Part shown: positions 16,243 to 24,548 of the stretch, piece after piece
Layout of the letters: every line of letters starts with the position of its first letter
Numbering within the stretch: position 1 is the stretch's first letter
Assembly (NCBI RefSeq): GCF_001543325.1
Contig: NZ_CP013355.1
Span: 124,001-188,000, forward strand
Direction of reading: 5' to 3'
DNA length: 64,000 bases
Source: Lutibacter profundi
Lineage (GTDB): Bacteria; Bacteroidota; Bacteroidia; Flavobacteriales; Flavobacteriaceae
Made by a program: the position numbers and the translations under genes
The notes under the pieces: model-generated
Seen by the model: only the letters and a program-made list of their open reading frames with translations
Databases searched by the model: none
Told to the model about the DNA's origin: nothing

Positions 16243-17679
16243 ATGAAAACAAAACTATTATTAATTGTAGCACTGTGTTTTACAATTACAACTTCATTTT
16301 CTCAAAAAAAAATAGGCAAAACAAAAAAAGCGATTATAAGTTCTGTGGAAAACCATAAAAAAGATCTTATAAATATTAGTGATGAAATTTGGTCATTGGC
16401 AGAAACTGCTTTTGAGGAAAATAAATCTTCAAAATTATTGGCAGATTATGCAGAAAAACAAGGATTTAAGGTTGAGCGTGGTGTAGCTGGTATTCCAACC
16501 GCTTTTGTAGCCACTTATGGTTCTGGTAGGCCAGTAATAAGTGTTTTAGGTGAATTTGATGCACTCCCAGGTATTTCACAAAAGGCAAAACCAACAAAAG
16601 ATCCTATTAATGAAGGAGAGCCTGGTCATGGTTGTGGTCATAACTTATTTGGGTCTGCAAGTTTAGGCGCAGCAATAGCTATTAAAGAATTAATAGAGAG
16701 CGGTAAAATTAAAGGAACTGTTAAGTTTTTTGGAACACCAAGTGAAGAAAAATATTTCGGAAAAATTTGGATGGTACGCGCAGGACTTTGGAATGATGTT
16801 GATGTTAACATAAGTTGGCATCCTTCTGCTGAAATTAAAGCAGATGTGCAAAGTTCATTAGCATTGGTAGATTTTAAAATTGAATTTTATGGGCAATCAG
16901 CTCATGCTTCCGCTGACCCTTGGAATGGTAGAAGTGCATCTGATGCATTAGAATTATATACTACAGGCATTAATTACTATAGAGAACATGTAAAACCTAC
17001 AGTAAGAATGCACTATCATATACAGGATGCAGGTAAAGTGGTTAATGTAGTTCCTGATTATGCAAGACTTTGGATGCGAGTTAGAGATACAAAAAGATCT
17101 GGGTTAATGCCTGTATATGAACAGGCTATGAAAATGGCTGAAGGAGCAGCAATTTTAGCGAATGTAGACTATAAGGTTTCACTAATTTCAGGAATATACG
17201 AAGTGTTGGTGAATAGAGAAGGAGGTAAAATAATGCAAAATAATCTTGAATTATTAGGGCCTATTAGTTATACGGATGAAGAAATCTCATTTGGAAAAAA
17301 AATACAAGAAGCTACAGGTAAAAAACAAATAGGAATGGATAGTACTATAAAGCCCTTAAAAGAAACAAGAGAAAATCCAGGAGGTGGCTCAACAGATGTA
17401 GGAGATGTAAGTTGGAATGTTGCAAACATAAATTTAGGTGTTACTACAGCACCAAAAGATACACCTTGGCATTCGTGGGCAGTAGTGGCTTGTGGAGGTA
17501 TGAGTATTGGCCATAAAGGAATGCTGTATGCATCAAAAGCAATGGCAATGACTATGCTTGATTTATTTGAAAACCCTGAATTGCTTAAAAAAGTTAAGGA
17601 TGAATATGTTAAAAGAAAAGGGAGTGAAGTTTATAAGGCAATTATCCCTGATGGGCCTCCTCCAATTCCTGTAAATTAA
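16243..17679 (+). CDS. Exported M20-family amidohydrolase (AbgB/p-aminobenzoyl-glutamate hydrolase-like)
   Basis: The 478-residue protein begins with a cleavable signal (ending SFSQ) and belongs to the M20 dinuclear zinc hydrolases. Motifs include GEFDALPG (near 104), GHGCGHNLFG (near 128, metal ligands), PSEEKYFGK with the catalytic and ligand glutamates (near 167), and the dimerisation domain SAHASADPWNGRSA. These are closest to AbgB-type aminobenzoyl-glutamate or aminoacyl amidohydrolases, though the true substrate is open. It is a monocistronic gene with its own promoter and a strong terminator shared with the convergent M1 peptidase genes. Confidence 0.85.
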   Translation: MKTKLLLIVALCFTITTSFSQKKIGKTKKAIISSVENHKKDLINISDEIWSLAETAFEENKSSKLLADYAEKQGFKVERGVAGIPTAFVATYGSGRPVISVLGEFDALPGISQKAKPTKDPINEGEPGHGCGHNLFGSASLGAAIAIKELIESGKIKGTVKFFGTPSEEKYFGKIWMVRAGLWNDVDVNISWHPSAEIKADVQSSLALVDFKIEFYGQSAHASADPWNGRSASDALELYTTGINYYREHVKPTVRMHYHIQDAGKVVNVVPDYARLWMRVRDTKRSGLMPVYEQAMKMAEGAAILANVDYKVSLISGIYEVLVNREGGKIMQNNLELLGPISYTDEEISFGKKIQEATGKKQIGMDSTIKPLKETRENPGGGSTDVGDVSWNVANINLGVTTAPKDTPWHSWAVVACGGMSIGHKGMLYASKAMAMTMLDLFENPELLKKVKDEYVKRKGSEVYKAIIPDGPPPIPVN

Positions 17680-17699
17680 GGATAATTATATAAAATAAT

Positions 17700-17724
17700 A
17701 AAGCCACTCTTTTGAAGTGGCTTT
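17700..17724. terminator. Bidirectional terminator between M20 and M1 genes
   Basis: A nine-base perfect stem (17700-17708 with 17716-17724) around a seven-base loop, flanked by A/T-rich tails, lies between two convergent stop codons. Confidence 0.8.
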
Positions 17725-17725
17725 A

Positions 17726-18368
17726 TTTTAACTTTTAATTTGAGTTTTTTTAAATTTTTCAAATTTAGTTTCTTTGTTTTTTGGCCAGCTATTGTTACTT
17801 AAATTTACATCAGCGGTTTGTTCATCTGGATCAATAGTAATTTTTTTAATTGCTTTACTAGAAGGAAAAACTTTGGTAACTTCTTTATCATTGTGTCTCC
17901 AAATTTGAGCTGGATATTGTTTGCGTTCTTTGGTACCATCTTCATATTCAAATTCAACAATAATAGGCATTACTAAATCTCCTGGTTTTTCAAACACTAG
18001 TTCATAAAAATATTTTGGTGCTTTTAGGGATGCTTTTTCTTGTTCATCAAAGTTAGCAGAAATATACTCACTTAATAAATTATAATCTTCGGGTTTTTTA
18101 TTTTTTAAATCGTTTGTAAATTCATCACTATCTTCAGAAACTAAATAAAGAGCAGGAGGCAGTTGATCAATAGTAATACCGTACCGTTTTGCCATGTTTT
18201 TAGCTCTTTCAGTAGGTTTATCGGTTACATAATATTTTTTTACTTCTTTAATACCAATATCGTTATTTCCTGTAGTATAAAACCAACCTCTCCAAAACCA
18301 ATCTAAATCCATAGCAGAAGCATCTTCCATAGTTCTAAAGAAATCGGCAGGAGTAGGGTGTTTAAATG
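17726..18368 (-). repeat. Direct repeat, copy A (3' third of M1 gene)
   Basis: This ~643-base tract matches 20107-20749 with about eight differences by hand alignment (roughly 99%), four of them clustered in two codons. Outside the tract the two genes diverge abruptly. The pattern points to gene conversion or a recent partial duplication. Confidence 0.9.
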
Positions 18369-19992
18369 CCCAACGTTTGGCATAAGTTTTAAATGCTTTG
18401 TCAAATAATTTAGGTCCCATAATTGTATTTCTAAGTATGTACAAGCCAGTTGCAGGTTTTGCATAAGCATTGGCTCCAAAACTATAGACGTGGTCACCTT
18501 GTGTCATAATTGGAGCTATTTTACTTTGATCTCCTTTCATATATCCAACAATATTCTTTGGTAACCCTCTATTTAAAGGGTAGTTATCTTCATACTCTCT
18601 TTGAGCCAACATTTGAACAAAAGAATTTAAACCTTCGTCCATCCAAGTCCATTGACGTTCATCAGAATTAATAATCATTGGAAAAAAATTATGTCCAACT
18701 TCATGTATAATTACTCCTAACATTCTATATTTAATTCTGTCATTATAACTTCCATCGGGGTTAGGTCTTCCTCTATTGAAACAAATTTGAGGATATTCCA
18801 TCCCTATATTTTTTGCATGAACCGAAATAGCCTTATGGTAAGGGTAATCTACAGTATATTTTGAATATGTTTTTAGAGTTTGAGCTACTGCTCTTGTAGA
18901 ATGTTTTTCCCATAGTGGGTTCCCTTCTTTTGGATAGTATGAATATGCCATAACCGTATTGCCATTAATATCAACAGCCATTCCATCCCAAATATATTTT
19001 CGAGAAGAAGCAAATGCATAATCACGTACATTTTTAGCCGAAAACTTCCAAGTTTTAGTTTTTTTAGTATTGTTTTGCTCAGCTTTTATGGCTTCATCTT
19101 GTGTGACAATAATTACAGGGTTATCAAAAGATTTTTTAGCCAATTCAAATCTTTTATATTGATTTTTTGAAAGGACTTCTTTAGGGTTTAATAATACACC
19201 TGTTGCACCCAAAATATGGTCTTTAGGTGTAGTAATATTCACATCAAAATCACCAAATTCTAGTGCAAATTCACTACGACCCCAAAATTGTAAATTTTGC
19301 CAACCATCAACATTGTCGTAAACTGCTAATCTTGGATAAAATTGAGCAATAATATAATCATTATTTCCATCTGGAAAGTGTTCAAAACCTGAACGACCAC
19401 CATCTTTAACATGATTATTGATGTTATACCACCACTTTATTTTAAATGAATATGTACCACCTGAAGTCAATGGTTTATCTAAATCTAGGCGCATCATTGT
19501 GTGGTTTATTTGATAGGGAATATTACTACCATCAATATTTTTAACATATTCAATTTTAAATCCGCCGTCAAAAGGATTTTTAATAAATGTTTTTGAAAAT
19601 TGAGAAGGAGAATACAATGTATTTGCATCACTCCCTTGTATATCAGGTGTTTCAGAATTAGCAGCACGCATATTTTGATCTAACTGAATCCATAAATATT
19701 CTAAATTATCTTTAGAATTATTGTGATATGTTATAGTTTCTTCACCATAAATACGTTGATTTTCATCATCTAAAATAATATCCATTTTATAATCAACTTG
19801 TTGTTGGGTATATTCATAACCTGGAGCTCCAGAAGCAGTATGTTGAGTATTTGGTGTTGGTAATTCTTGATGTAATTGTTTAAACTTACTTGTATTGTAA
19901 TGCCCTTTTTGTTGCTGAGTTTTTTGAGCAGAAGTGACGGTAGTATAAAAAAGTAATAGGATAAGAGAAGTAAAAGTGAATAATTTTTTCAT
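17728..19992 (-). CDS. Exported M1-family zinc metallopeptidase, copy A
   Basis: This 754-residue protein has a signal peptide (ending TSAQ), an aminopeptidase-N-like beta domain and a thermolysin-like catalytic domain. HEVGH is at about 430-434, followed 18 residues later by the third zinc ligand Glu in WMDEGLNSF; the GMEYP motif before it corresponds to the GxMEN exopeptidase loop. It is therefore probably a periplasmic or surface aminopeptidase. No T9SS C-terminal domain is evident. Its last ~213 residues are almost identical to those of the upstream copy B, while the rest has diverged. Confidence 0.9.
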   Translation of the reverse strand: MKKLFTFTSLILLLFYTTVTSAQKTQQQKGHYNTSKFKQLHQELPTPNTQHTASGAPGYEYTQQQVDYKMDIILDDENQRIYGEETITYHNNSKDNLEYLWIQLDQNMRAANSETPDIQGSDANTLYSPSQFSKTFIKNPFDGGFKIEYVKNIDGSNIPYQINHTMMRLDLDKPLTSGGTYSFKIKWWYNINNHVKDGGRSGFEHFPDGNNDYIIAQFYPRLAVYDNVDGWQNLQFWGRSEFALEFGDFDVNITTPKDHILGATGVLLNPKEVLSKNQYKRFELAKKSFDNPVIIVTQDEAIKAEQNNTKKTKTWKFSAKNVRDYAFASSRKYIWDGMAVDINGNTVMAYSYYPKEGNPLWEKHSTRAVAQTLKTYSKYTVDYPYHKAISVHAKNIGMEYPQICFNRGRPNPDGSYNDRIKYRMLGVIIHEVGHNFFPMIINSDERQWTWMDEGLNSFVQMLAQREYEDNYPLNRGLPKNIVGYMKGDQSKIAPIMTQGDHVYSFGANAYAKPATGLYILRNTIMGPKLFDKAFKTYAKRWAFKHPTPADFFRTMEDASAMDLDWFWRGWFYTTGNNDIGIKEVKKYYVTDKPTERAKNMAKRYGITIDQLPPALYLVSEDSDEFTNDLKNKKPEDYNLLSEYISANFDEQEKASLKAPKYFYELVFEKPGDLVMPIIVEFEYEDGTKERKQYPAQIWRHNDKEVTKVFPSSKAIKKITIDPDEQTADVNLSNNSWPKNKETKFEKFKKTQIKS

Positions 19993-20106
19993 TGAGTAGT
20001 TAGATTAGAGTTTAAGAATAGAAATTATAAAATAAATAAAAATAAACTGACTAAAAAGTAGGTTTTCATTATTTGAATTTCAACACTTTTAGTCAGCTTT
20101 AGTTAT

Positions 20107-20749
20107 TTTTAACTTTTAATTTGAGTTTTTTTAAATTTTTCAAATTTAGTTTCTTTGTTTTTTGGCCAGCTATTGTTACTTAAATTTACATCAGCGGTTT
20201 GTTCATCTGGATCAATAGTAATTTTTTTAATAGCTTTACTAGAAGGAAAAACTTTAGTAACTTCTTTATCATTGTGTCTCCAAATTTGAGCCGGATATTG
20301 TTTGCGTTCTTTAGTACCATCTTCATATTCAAATTCAACAATAATAGGCATTACTAAATCTCCTGGTTTTTCAAACACTAGTTCATAAAAATATTTTGGT
20401 GCTTTTAGGGATGCTTTTTCTTGTTCATCAAAGTTAGCAGAAATATACTCACTTAATAGGGCATAATCTTCGGGTTTTTTATTTTTTAAATCGTTTGTAA
20501 ATTCATCACTATCTTCAGAAACTAAATAAAGAGCAGGAGGCAGTTGATCAATAGTAATACCGTACCGTTTTGCCATGTTTTTAGCTCTTTCAGTAGGTTT
20601 ATCGGTTACATAATATTTTTTTACTTCTTTAATACCAATATCGTTATTTCCTGTAGTATAAAACCAACCTCTCCAAAACCAATCTAAATCCATAGCAGAA
20701 GCATCTTCCATAGTTCTAAAGAAATCGGCAGGAGTAGGGTGTTTAAATT
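20107..20749 (-). repeat. Direct repeat, copy B (3' third of M1 gene)
   Basis: Partner of 17726-18368, offset 2,381 bases. Identity begins just outside the stop codon and fades at the codons after the KHPTPADFF-encoding segment. Confidence 0.9.
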
Positions 20750-22379
20750 TCCATCGTTTGGCATAAGTTTTAAATGCTTTATCAAATAACTCAGGTCCCA
20801 TAATAGTTTGGCGTAAAATAAATAAACCTGCAGCTGGTTTGGCATAAGCATTTGCTCCAAAGTTAAAAACATTATCGCCTTGCGACATAATTGGTGCTAT
20901 TTTACTTTGGTCACCTTTCATATAACCAATAACATTTTTTGGATATTTACTAAAAGGAAATAGGTTAGAATCATACTTATTTTCTGCTAAAATTTCAACA
21001 AAAGAATTAATACCTTCATCCATCCAAGTCCACTGTCTTTCATCTGAATTTACGATCATTGGGAAAAAGTTATGTCCAACTTCGTGAGTCACCACACCAA
21101 TCATACCTTTTTTTGTTCTTTCTGTATATTTCCCATCAGGGTTCGGTCTTCCAAAATTCCAACAAATCATAGGGTATTCCATACCTTGACGTTTTGCATT
21201 AACAGATGTTGCTTGTGGATAAGGATAATCAAAAGTGTGTTCAGAATAAACTTTTAATGTATTGGCTACTACTTTTGTTGAATGTTCTTCCCATAGAGGA
21301 TTTCCTTCATTAGGGTATAAAGAATAAGCCATTACTGTTCTTTCATTAAGTTTAACAGCCATAGCATCCCAAATTAATTTACGAGATGAAGCAAAAGCAA
21401 AATCACGTACATTTTCAGCTTTCAATTTCCAAGTCTTAGAATCTTTTGCTCTTCCTTTTTCGGCTTCAAGAGCCTCTTCAGGAGTTACAATAAATACAGG
21501 GTTATCATAAGAATTTTGAGCTGCTTGATATCTTTTAAATTGTTTTTTATTAAATACTTCTTTAGGGTTTTGTATTACTCCAGTTCCATTTAAAATATGG
21601 TCTTTAGGTGTTGTTATAGATACTTCATAATTACCAAATTCCAGTGCAAACTCACTACTTCCCCAAAATTGCATATTTTGCCATCCTTCAACATTGTTGT
21701 ATACTGCTAAACGAGGAAAAAATTGCGCAATTACATATAATTTATTTCCATCAGGAAAAGGCTCATAACCTGAACGTCCTCTTTCAGAAGTATAGTCATT
21801 AATATTATACCACCATTTAATATTAAACACAAATTTTGCTCCCGAAACTATTGGTTTTGGCAAATCAATTCGCATCATTGTTTGGTTTATAGTATAGTTT
21901 ATTGAATTTCCATTAGTATCAGTTATAGATTGAATGTTGAAACCACCTTGGAATGGTTTTCCCATAAACATTTTTGTGAATTTAGATGGCGAATATAAAG
22001 CATCAGGGCCACCACCACTAATGTCAGGTTTTTTCGAATTTGGGGCTCTTATATTTTGATCAAGTTGAATCCATAAATACTCTAAATTATCTTTTGAATT
22101 ATTGTGATATGTGATAGTTTCTTCACCAAACAATTTTTGATTATAATCGTCTAAAATAATATTCATTTTATAATCTACCTGTTGTTGAGTGTATTCATAT
22201 CCAGGAGCTCCAGAAGCGGTGTGTTGTTTATTTGGAGTGGGCAACTCTTCCTTTAACTGTTTAAATTTACTTGTATTATAATGCCCTTGTTGTCTCTCTT
22301 TTTTCTGTTCAACTTCTTGGCTGTATAATGTTGTTGAAACACAAATAATAGACAATACTAAAATTAATAATTTTTTCAT
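20109..22379 (-). CDS. Exported M1-family zinc metallopeptidase, copy B
   Basis: A 756-residue paralogue of copy A in direct tandem, 116 bases upstream of it. It has a signal peptide (ending LYSQ), the HEVGH site at about 432-436, the downstream Glu in WMDEGINSF, and a GMEYP exopeptidase-like loop. The central region differs from copy A at many residues, including around the substrate-binding side, whereas the C-terminal ~213 residues differ at only one or two. The two enzymes probably cleave different peptides with a shared C-terminal domain. It follows a DUF6702-like gene by 66 bases and is likely in the same transcript. Confidence 0.9.
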   Translation of the reverse strand: MKKLLILVLSIICVSTTLYSQEVEQKKERQQGHYNTSKFKQLKEELPTPNKQHTASGAPGYEYTQQQVDYKMNIILDDYNQKLFGEETITYHNNSKDNLEYLWIQLDQNIRAPNSKKPDISGGGPDALYSPSKFTKMFMGKPFQGGFNIQSITDTNGNSINYTINQTMMRIDLPKPIVSGAKFVFNIKWWYNINDYTSERGRSGYEPFPDGNKLYVIAQFFPRLAVYNNVEGWQNMQFWGSSEFALEFGNYEVSITTPKDHILNGTGVIQNPKEVFNKKQFKRYQAAQNSYDNPVFIVTPEEALEAEKGRAKDSKTWKLKAENVRDFAFASSRKLIWDAMAVKLNERTVMAYSLYPNEGNPLWEEHSTKVVANTLKVYSEHTFDYPYPQATSVNAKRQGMEYPMICWNFGRPNPDGKYTERTKKGMIGVVTHEVGHNFFPMIVNSDERQWTWMDEGINSFVEILAENKYDSNLFPFSKYPKNVIGYMKGDQSKIAPIMSQGDNVFNFGANAYAKPAAGLFILRQTIMGPELFDKAFKTYAKRWKFKHPTPADFFRTMEDASAMDLDWFWRGWFYTTGNNDIGIKEVKKYYVTDKPTERAKNMAKRYGITIDQLPPALYLVSEDSDEFTNDLKNKKPEDYALLSEYISANFDEQEKASLKAPKYFYELVFEKPGDLVMPIIVEFEYEDGTKERKQYPAQIWRHNDKEVTKVFPSSKAIKKITIDPDEQTADVNLSNNSWPKNKETKFEKFKKTQIKS

Positions 22380-22445: not shown

Positions 22446-22943
22446 TTAAAACTTTAACAAACCTTTATCATTTTTTCTGTTTAAATAAAATGTTTTGTTA
22501 ATGTTGTTAGCCTTTATTTTAATAATATTTTCTTGATCTTCAAATGTTTCAAACAAACAATTATTTATCACTTCTATAGAGTTAATACTTTTAATGTTAG
22601 TTATTTCTAAGTAAAACCGAACAAGATCACCATCGTATTCTTTTCCAATGTAGTTATATATTTGTAGTTTGTTATTTACAATAATTTTAAAATGTTTATT
22701 TAAATAACTTTTGTAGTATTTATCAATATTTTTAACTTCATCAGTTGTAGCTAAATTTAATATTGTATCATTACTCTTGTTCAGTGTAACTTCAAGGTCA
22801 TCAATAAACATCCCCAATGTTATTTGTATCGATTTTTGTTCTTCAACATATTCAATTTCACATAAACTTATATAGTATTTATGCACAGAAAATGCAAGTA
22901 GAGGAATAACTATAAGGAGTGTGAAATATTTTAAATGTTTCAT
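22446..22943 (-). CDS. DUF6702-like exported protein
   Basis: The 165-residue product has an N-terminal signal/anchor, then the segment HKYYISLCEIEYVEEQKSIQ leading into a beta-rich domain with FIDDLEVTLN and a C-terminal strand pair. This fits, from memory, the DUF6702 family of Bacteroidota, found repeatedly beside M1 peptidase genes. Function is unknown. Conserved company with the peptidases suggests an accessory envelope protein. No catalytic motif can be seen. Confidence 0.65.
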   Translation of the reverse strand: MKHLKYFTLLIVIPLLAFSVHKYYISLCEIEYVEEQKSIQITLGMFIDDLEVTLNKSNDTILNLATTDEVKNIDKYYKSYLNKHFKIIVNNKLQIYNYIGKEYDGDLVRFYLEITNIKSINSIEVINNCLFETFEDQENIIKIKANNINKTFYLNRKNDKGLLKF

Positions 22944-23008
22944 TGTTTTATTTTTTTGCTAATAAACAAAAAGCATTCCAAAAAACAATACGAGGCTATC
23001 TTAAAAAA

Positions 23009-23773
23009 TTAATATTTAAGTGAATTAAATTCTCTTGCTTGTTTTATTAAAAAATTTTTGATTGTAATTTCATTACTATTGTAAAAATTTTTGAGACCAT
23101 TTCCTTCGCAATAGTCTAAAAATAAATTTATTTTATTTTTTGGTATGTGAAGCCATTCAGTAAAGAAATCTTCTTCGTATTGATTTTTGAGTGTTGTAGA
23201 AAGATTATCTTTTAATTGTAGAATTCTTTCTTGTTCATCTTTTCTTTTTTTACTTTTTAAGCGTAATTTTTTAGTAAGCATGCCTAATATAGTTATAAAG
23301 TCAGCACCTTTAAATTTAGCATTTGGATCTGTAAGTCTTCTTGCATTAGGAGGTTTGCTTCTAGCTATTTTGTCATTGTTTAAAACAGTCCCTTTGATAA
23401 TAGATAGGTTTCCCCAATTAGTGTTTATTTTTTTTGTTAGCATAACTTCATTTAATAAATTGTAATTTGGTTCTAAATACACTACAATTTCTTTTGTGTT
23501 TAAATGTGTATCTGAAATTACAATAATTCGTTTTTTATAAACAATTGATGAAATTAATATAGAATCTCCTTTAGCTGCATAAATTATAAAGAGTCCGTTT
23601 TTATCACTAGAAGCGCCATTTTTTGTAGCTTTATTAATAATATTTACGTCTTGAAGGGCTATGGAATCGTACTTTACTGTTCCTAAAAGTTTGGTGCGCT
23701 TTTCTTGTGCCTTCAATAGTATTTGAGACAATAAAAATAGGACTAGTATGTAATTTTTAATTTTTAATTGCAT
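23009..23773 (-). CDS. CarboxypepD_reg-like exported protein, paralogue 1
   Basis: A 254-residue protein with a signal peptide (ending LKAQ) and a beta-sandwich of the carboxypeptidase-regulatory-like type (about 28-110): GTVKYDSIALQDVNI, GLFIIYAAKGDSILIS, then VYLEPNYNLLNEVML. Such domains usually head TonB-dependent receptors, but no barrel follows; instead there is a PNARRLTDP motif (near 140) and an alpha-helical C-terminus. Its start overlaps the upstream paralogue by 17 bases. Function unknown; envelope location is inferred from the signal. Confidence 0.75.
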   Translation of the reverse strand: MQLKIKNYILVLFLLSQILLKAQEKRTKLLGTVKYDSIALQDVNIINKATKNGASSDKNGLFIIYAAKGDSILISSIVYKKRIIVISDTHLNTKEIVVYLEPNYNLLNEVMLTKKINTNWGNLSIIKGTVLNNDKIARSKPPNARRLTDPNAKFKGADFITILGMLTKKLRLKSKKRKDEQERILQLKDNLSTTLKNQYEEDFFTEWLHIPKNKINLFLDYCEGNGLKNFYNSNEITIKNFLIKQAREFNSLKY

Positions 23774-24548
23774 TGTAAATTTTGCTTTCTTGCTGTAAAA
23801 TTTCTATTACCTCTAATAATCTATGGTTATAATATTTATGAATAATAGCTCTATACTCACAATAAGCTATAAAATTATTAATTCTTTCTTTTGGAATTTT
23901 TAAATTTATTGTAAAAAAATCTAAACCTAATTCTTTTTTTATTTTGCTGGGGAATTCTTTCTTTTTTAGAAGGTCACTTTTTAATTTTCGTAATTTTATC
24001 ATACGAAAATCTGGAAGTGTAGCTCCACCATTACTTCTCATTTTAATGGGGTCAGTCATGTTTTGGGCGTTAGGAGCTTTCAAAAAACCATGTATGTCTG
24101 GCCCTAATTTTTTACTTAAATCACTTAATTTAAATACAAAGTTATGTTTTGGGAATGTGTCTTTTGGGACACTTTTAATATCAATATCTAAATTACCAGA
24201 TAAACTTTCCAAAAAAACTTCATTCAAAATATTTACCAATGGGGTTAAATGAACCTTTAATTTTTTAGTTTCAATAATATTTTTTGTTATCAAAATTTTT
24301 AATGTTTGATATTGAATGGACGAAAATAATATGGTATCATTTACTGCTACTTTTAGTTCAAATTCTCCAAAATTATTACTAACAGAGCCTAATTTTGTAT
24401 TTAAATTAAGGATATTAATATTACTTACAACTTTATGAACGCTAATTATTTCTCCCGTAATAGAGGTGCGTTTTTCTTGAGTAAAACAGTTTATGGTACT
24501 GAAAATAGCCAAAAATAAAGTGGTTAGTTTAAAATTCATTAACAACAA
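23757..24548 (-). CDS. CarboxypepD_reg-like exported protein, paralogue 2
   Basis: The first gene of this minus-strand run encodes 263 residues with the same plan as its downstream paralogue: signal peptide (ending CFTQ), a CarboxypepD_reg-like beta-sandwich with GEFELKVAVNDTILFSSIQY and HLTPLVNILNEVFLE, a PNAQNMTDP motif, and a helical C-terminus containing LDFFTINLKIPKERINNFIAYCE (matching the partner's DFFTEWLHIPKNKINLFLDYCE in pattern). Sequence identity is low overall, so the duplication is old. The pair precedes DUF6702 and M1 peptidase genes in one probable operon. Confidence 0.75.
   Translation of the reverse strand: MLLMNFKLTTLFLAIFSTINCFTQEKRTSITGEIISVHKVVSNINILNLNTKLGSVSNNFGEFELKVAVNDTILFSSIQYQTLKILITKNIIETKKLKVHLTPLVNILNEVFLESLSGNLDIDIKSVPKDTFPKHNFVFKLSDLSKKLGPDIHGFLKAPNAQNMTDPIKMRSNGGATLPDFRMIKLRKLKSDLLKKKEFPSKIKKELGLDFFTINLKIPKERINNFIAYCEYRAIIHKYYNHRLLEVIEILQQESKIYNAIKN

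Follow-up and report, generated by a model that had tools for sequence, protein, structure and literature searches.

Two tandem M1 peptidase genes of the genus Lutibacter have kept separate histories over their 5' two thirds, and our phylogenetic and silent-site comparisons show that their last third has been homogenised recurrently, lineage by lineage, and long ago in some species. The mechanism in which we place high confidence is that these are old paralogues whose last third was overwritten again and again by homologous recombination between the directly repeated tails, with the 5' parts remaining separate. The pair was recognised in a window of 64,000 nucleotides (the whole stretch of DNA analysed) from Lutibacter profundi, whose genome comprises 2,966,978 bases in one contig.

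Twin M1 peptidase genes and their genomic context

Both genes are intact M1 peptidase open reading frames (ORFs), arranged head to tail on the minus strand, and they score 52.5 and 52.8 bits against the Pfam Peptidase_M1 profile, for which the cut-off is 27.7. The features of the locus, in window coordinates, are as follows.

17728..19992, minus strand: gene D, M1 family peptidase; ORF of 754 aa, second in the tandem pair (Pfam Peptidase_M1, E 6.5e-14; D clade in the codon 1-520 tree)
20109..22379, minus strand: gene U, M1 family peptidase; ORF of 756 aa, transcribed first of the pair (Pfam Peptidase_M1, E 5.2e-14; U side in the codon 1-520 tree)
18367..19992, minus strand: diverged part of D, comprising the N-terminal beta domain and the greater part of the catalytic domain, 26.4% different from U; carries the motifs GMEYP (397-401), HEVGH (430-434), E453 and Y510, all invariant columns in 39 sequences
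20748..22379, minus strand: diverged part of U, with the same layout as in D
17728..18366, minus strand: homogenised tail of D, codons 543-754 and the stop; 8 differences in 636 bases from the U tail
20109..20747, minus strand: homogenised tail of U, codons 545-756 and the stop
18343..18438, minus strand: 5' boundary zone, codons 519-550 in D numbering; range of high-to-low change points in the 12 genus pairs whose tails are more than 90% identical
19993..20108, minus strand: intergenic stretch between U and D, unrelated to the D 3' flank; 3' limit of the exchanged tract
22446..24548, minus strand: neighbours upstream of U, a DUF6702 protein and two small CarboxypepD_reg-like proteins, assigned by Pfam, with both CarbopepD_reg_2 matches of the small proteins just below the curated cut-off

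In the 39-sequence alignment, the M1 zinc site HEXXH-X18-E is present and invariant (H430, E431, H434 and E453 in D numbering), as is Y510, which we take to be the catalytic tyrosine from its position in the motif. Judged by eye, the start of gene D resembles a signal peptide. A terminator-like hairpin (17697-17727) lies between D and the convergent gene for an M20 peptidase (16243-17679), and promoter-like sites occur near the level of shuffled sequence (45 versus 40.4, sd 6.6). The DUF6702-cluster gene lies beside U, preceded by one to three small genes, in 18 of the 19 other genus genomes compared. The small CarboxypepD_reg-like genes vary in copy number between genus genomes (loci L158-L176); G025 and G026 have an extra gene inserted between the DUF6702-cluster gene and the region of the small genes, and G033 reaches a contig end.

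Near-identity of the two tails in L. profundi

The initial annotation had described a final stretch of about 643 bases with about eight differences between the genes, and this is borne out: codons 543-754 differ at 8 of 636 bases, as opposed to 427 of 1617 upstream of codon 543 (Fisher p = 3e-57), a figure that likewise confirms the strong upstream divergence it had reported. The divergence that it placed around the active site is found as fixed U/D differences at residue 402, after GMEYP, and residue 429, before HEVGH. Its observation that silent sites agree in the tail also holds, since only 4 of 65 fourfold sites in codons 541-754 differ, whereas codons 1-540 have 74 differing sites out of 138 (p about 4e-12). 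The longest identical run between D and U is 286 bases, compared with a maximum of 64 in 2000 shuffles. On the 3' side, identity extends over 5 bases including the stop, beyond which the two sequences are unrelated, and no third match to the tail occurs anywhere in the L. profundi genome. At the level of sequence, DNA exchange rather than selection on the protein is supported as the source of the D/U identity in this species. The recent exchange originally proposed thus explains the identity seen here, but not as one event, as exchange recurs over the genus.

Misassembly, in which the assembler would have copied the tail of one gene into the other, is unlikely, and we give it very little weight, because the published L. 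profundi genome is a PacBio assembly (described in the available text of PMC5219744 as a 10 kb library at 76x, closed into one self-overlapping contig) and because the pattern recurs in other species. Draft contigs do end within the tail, as near-identical repeats can cause, at query codons 715, 557, 571 and 710 (L057, L059, L069 and L075, the codon 710 case being a U gene), but other draft contigs end upstream of it (G005, G016). Moreover, eight differences persist between the L. profundi tails, and graded tail identities of 80-100% are seen over many assemblies, including the single-contig ones of G025 and G026.

Tail homogenisation across the genus

A relative above threshold was found in 36 of 38 genus genomes, and the pair was recovered in 29. 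U alone was found in five (G002, G003, G013, G015 and G033, with G013 cut by a contig end), a fragment in G035, and D plus a broken U on two contigs in G017; G011 and G024 yielded nothing at the threshold. The U gene of G017 (L056) is broken near codon 605, within the tail, into two frames that overlap, and a D-start fragment following it contains one TAG, for which a real change and a repeat-related assembly fault are both possible. The 26 pairs with enough of both parts were used for the trees, leaving out G005, G020 and G031.

Identity is higher in the tail than in the 5' part in every one of the 26 (80-100% versus 68-74%). This excess is by itself no proof of exchange, because codons 541-570 encode a very conserved stretch of protein (amino acid distance between genomes 0.04-0.05), and, judging from these distances, conservation of that block at the protein level accounts for some of the tail identity in old pairs. 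Codons 601-660 have amino acid distances of 0.27-0.35 between species and 0.10-0.12 within a genome. The grading of tail identity from 80 to 100% indicates exchanges of different age; at its upper end, 642 bases counted back from the stop are identical in G028, after which the flanks are unrelated.

Phylogenetic and silent-site evidence for recurrent exchange

The tree of codons 1-520 recovers D as monophyletic with support 100 and places none of the 26 pairs as within-genome sisters, whereas the tree of codons 545-754 does so for 16 of the 26, with support of at least 95 in 14. A repeat with FastTree returned 0 of 26 sister pairs for the 5' part and 15 of 26 for the tail. A tail tree constrained to the U|D split is 1862 log units worse (p-AU 2e-6), and a 5' tree constrained to 15 within-genome pairs is 5365 log units worse (p-AU 0.0014), both tests having used fast searches and 2000 resamplings, a number that the program flags as too few. 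Separate 5' clades together with sister tails therefore show that the tail was exchanged many times, independently in different species, and each tail-sister pair needs at least one exchange after its split from the nearest sampled relative.

Independent tandem duplications, arising recently in one species after another, would also be expected to leave identity within genomes. Here, however, the 5' two thirds are ancient and match as orthologues from species to species, with no sister pair among the 26, and the upstream gene order is kept in 18 of 19 genomes; we regard this scenario as extremely improbable, and as the origin of the pair recent duplication is refuted by the 5' trees. It does explain the third copy in G012.

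The check that the initial annotation had put forward, a comparison of orthologous pairs by synonymous divergence, was run over the genus and revealed the tail excess along with exchange on more than one occasion. Pooled fourfold distances in codons 541-750 are 0.26-0.39 within genomes versus 0.54-0.66 between U and D of different genomes, and the corresponding upstream values are 0.48-0.69 versus 0.52-0.66, the between-genome distances being taken from 200 sampled pairs. Pair by pair, the deficit of fourfold differences in the tail reaches p < 0.01 in 16 of 26 and p < 0.05 in 21; the five in which it is not significant are G004, G007, G009, G029 and G036, among which G004 and G009 are nonetheless sisters in the tail tree. 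Non-sister tails occur in 10 of 26 pairs, and in G007/G022 and G016/G036 the tails follow their orthologues. These non-sister and non-significant pairs imply that exchange was not continuous.

Strong purifying selection on the tail protein, acting without exchange, could be read from the nearly invariant protein of codons 541-570. Yet agreement at silent sites is seen within genomes only, and codons 601-660 belong to the faster-changing parts between species; we hold this explanation highly improbable. As the only cause, purifying selection is refuted by the fourfold sites of 16 of the 26 pairs at p < 0.01, though on the silent-site data it may be the main cause in the five pairs lacking a significant fourfold excess. 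Across the genus, the pair displays the hallmarks of concerted evolution: paralogous tails are closer within a genome, silent sites agree, and the duplication predates the species compared.

Borders of the exchanged tract and layout of the protein

The boundary initially annotated as sharp and as lying at the same codon in both genes is fitted in L. profundi as a drop in divergence at codon 542-543 (support interval 522-545). Over the genus, the border is not one codon and spans some 30: among the 12 pairs whose tails exceed 90% identity, the fitted drop in divergence lies between codons 519 and 550 (in G028 and G034, the border is the second of two fitted points). Because fits to older pairs are unstable, with the first fitted point anywhere in codons 434-544, the fixed border rests on these 12 recent pairs. 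The newest tract ends before the stop in several genomes (at 621 in G006, 637 in G021 and 724 in G026, among others), and identity reaches the stop in G000, G008 and G028. Counted onward with the stop itself, identity covers no more than 6 bases in 19 of the 20 pairs read and 19 bases in G012; G018, where the contig ends, was set aside.

The structure model of D has a mean pLDDT of 84 and aligns with the M1 enzyme 1z1w over 469 residues (Z 28.5, rmsd 4.1). The border region comprises two helices (505-525 and 527-540) and a loop (541-547) in this model, and the tract takes in the final two catalytic-domain helices (548-559 and 564-572) together with a short C-terminal part of about 175 residues after that domain. 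As modelled, the border cuts within the catalytic domain, two helices short of its end, and not between domains. The boundary zone starts nine codons past Tyr510, the last catalytic residue by motif. Different residues are fixed in U and D at 14 positions (at least 90% in each; 34 U and 30 D genus rows), all of which lie upstream of codon 521, leaving none in codons 521-754. With the catalytic residues and all 14 fixed differences upstream, the layout would fit the initial suggestion of two specificities on one scaffold.

The same layout lends some weight to a reading that we entertain tentatively, in which exchange may occur anywhere, with selection purging it upstream of codon about 540, where it would merge the specificities, and favouring it in the tail, which would serve one shared partner or site. 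The boundary zone opening just past Tyr510, the recognised catalytic residues and the confinement of fixed differences to the upstream part would suit such selection; the faster change of codons 601-660 between species than within a genome is what co-evolution with a partner predicts; and Kruithof et al. (PMC2077338, available text) argue likewise for TLR1/TLR6. On the other hand, the partner is putative, homology limits alone yield the same pattern, and the border falls within the catalytic domain rather than at a domain border. The rate difference at codons 601-660 suits neutral homogenisation and partner co-evolution alike. A more specific version strikes us as doubtful: the tail would be a common docking module matched to a fast-changing, species-specific partner, and conversion would be selected as it updates both enzymes while leaving their specificities untouched. 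A candidate partner would perhaps be encoded by the conserved genes upstream of U, either the DUF6702 gene or a CarboxypepD_reg-like one.

Homologs outside the genus and the origin of the shared tail

Among the best 80 loci, tandem pairs occur at at least 11 non-Lutibacter loci, from Tenacibaculum, Polaribacter and two further Flavobacteriaceae. In these 11, the tail is 65-73% identical and the 5' part 65-71%, with only codons 541-580 higher, at 81-88%. Across 20 stretches of other genera among the family matches listed, 16 hold a single gene and 4 a tandem pair. The outside set consisted of 15 tandem pairs, genomes with two matches at separate places being left out, and 14 of these 15 have no tail excess beyond the conserved block. 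A genome of another genus, G051 (L178), carries a younger pair, 84% alike upstream and 91% alike in codons 581-754, with fourfold differences of 0.15 in the tail versus 0.32 (p 0.0065, uncorrected); on these figures it is perhaps a weaker, independent case of the same process. The D-type gene comes first in 10 of the 11 outside pairs and second in L095.

The linker before the C-terminal part bears on when the tails became alike. D codons 588-663 correspond to 76 residues in both D and U of Lutibacter and to 28-35 residues in outside D-type proteins (12 sequences). D-type M1 genes of Tenacibaculum, Polaribacter and relatives (L090-L144) lack 41-48 linker residues at this point. In trees of 38 chosen sequences, built with fast searches, Lutibacter D falls together with the D-type genes of Tenacibaculum and Polaribacter over the 5' part (support 99.9); grouping the Lutibacter D tail with outside D-type tails loses 109 units of log-likelihood (p-AU 8e-7), and a tree that unites the tails of U, D and the outside D-type genes is compatible with the data (p 0.29). 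Because the 5' part of D, and not its tail, groups outside the genus, and because the 76-residue linker is common to D and U, unification of the tails probably dates from before the genus Lutibacter or from its early history, and has been maintained since.

A model of repeated tail exchange

The 5' two thirds have been separate since before the sampled Lutibacter species split, and the last third, about 215 codons, has been copied repeatedly from one gene to the other, presumably by homologous recombination between the tails, which form direct repeats about 1.7 kb apart. The machinery was presumably ordinary RecA-type recombination. Homology may set the limits of the tract: the 3' limit would lie where homology stops and the 5' limit where long exact matches stop, the upstream exact matches being too short and scattered for efficient pairing. 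The conserved protein block of codons 541-570 could keep an identity seed where exchange can restart. Every exchange would renew the identity of the tail, so that the tail stays exchangeable and the 5' parts drift out of reach.

Efficient recombination in bacteria requires some 25 or more identical bases. The longest exact run upstream has a median of 24 and a maximum of 41 bases over 28 pairs, and exact runs in the tail reach 50-642 bases in the 12 recent pairs. Upstream runs of 30-41 bases without visible exchange are present in 8 of the 28 pairs and therefore leave room for selection; selection for a shared tail is possible.

Two rearrangements are of interest here. G003 carries U only, followed by the D-side flank (score 60 versus 22, same next gene), and in the tree of 5' U sequences its sister is G037, a species with both genes. 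G012 (L053/L176) carries a U-D-D' triple, in which the third copy is 95% identical to D over 669 bases; this match lies in the 5' part, and the contig ends within D'. Both fit recombination between tails, with other routes possible, and a plain deletion of D would account for G003 equally well.

Comparison with known systems

The Lutibacter pair shares HEXXH-X18-E and the tyrosine with M1 aminopeptidases such as tricorn factor F3, ERAP1/2, PepN and LTA4H. Unlike these, U and D carry GMEYP where the usual M1 motif is GAMEN, and their C-terminal part is short in the model. We found no earlier report of the pair in the literature searched, which covered few subscription papers.

Recurrent gene conversion of prokaryotic paralogues over long times is documented in the survey of Wang and Chen (2018; PMC6053082), whose available text describes long-lasting concerted evolution in 26 prokaryotic genes. 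That survey concerns full-length exchange, unlike the case described here, leaves part-of-gene cases to later work, and nowhere uses the word peptidase in its main text. A closer parallel is mtrA-1/mtrA-2 of Methanococcales and Methanomicrobiales, in which long-lasting gene conversion has homogenised one domain (Wang et al. 2015; PMC4632066, available text). As in Lutibacter, these are paralogues of one operon that are distinct over the rest of their length, and a tree separating the paralogues is rejected for the shared domain. They differ in being archaeal and in that their non-shared part is a different transmembrane domain, acquired through shuffling and fusion, whereas both parts of the Lutibacter pair are homologous and the border lies within one catalytic domain.

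The mammalian receptors TLR1/TLR6 offer a second parallel, being tandem genes whose C-terminal part was exchanged independently in many species with nearly the same borders, and whose specificity part has diverged (Kruithof et al. 2007; PMC2077338, available text). Unlike the peptidases, they are animal immune receptors with a known shared partner, TLR2, and for their conserved borders the authors state that there is 'no clear explanation'. Part-of-gene concerted evolution is thus known but seldom documented, and the Lutibacter pair is a clear bacterial case. It supplies many natural replicates, with 26 comparable species pairs of different ages and a conserved conversion border in bacteria, which let one ask directly whether the limits of conversion come from homology or from selection. 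Used as whole genes, such pairs mislead trees, orthology calls and short-read assemblies.
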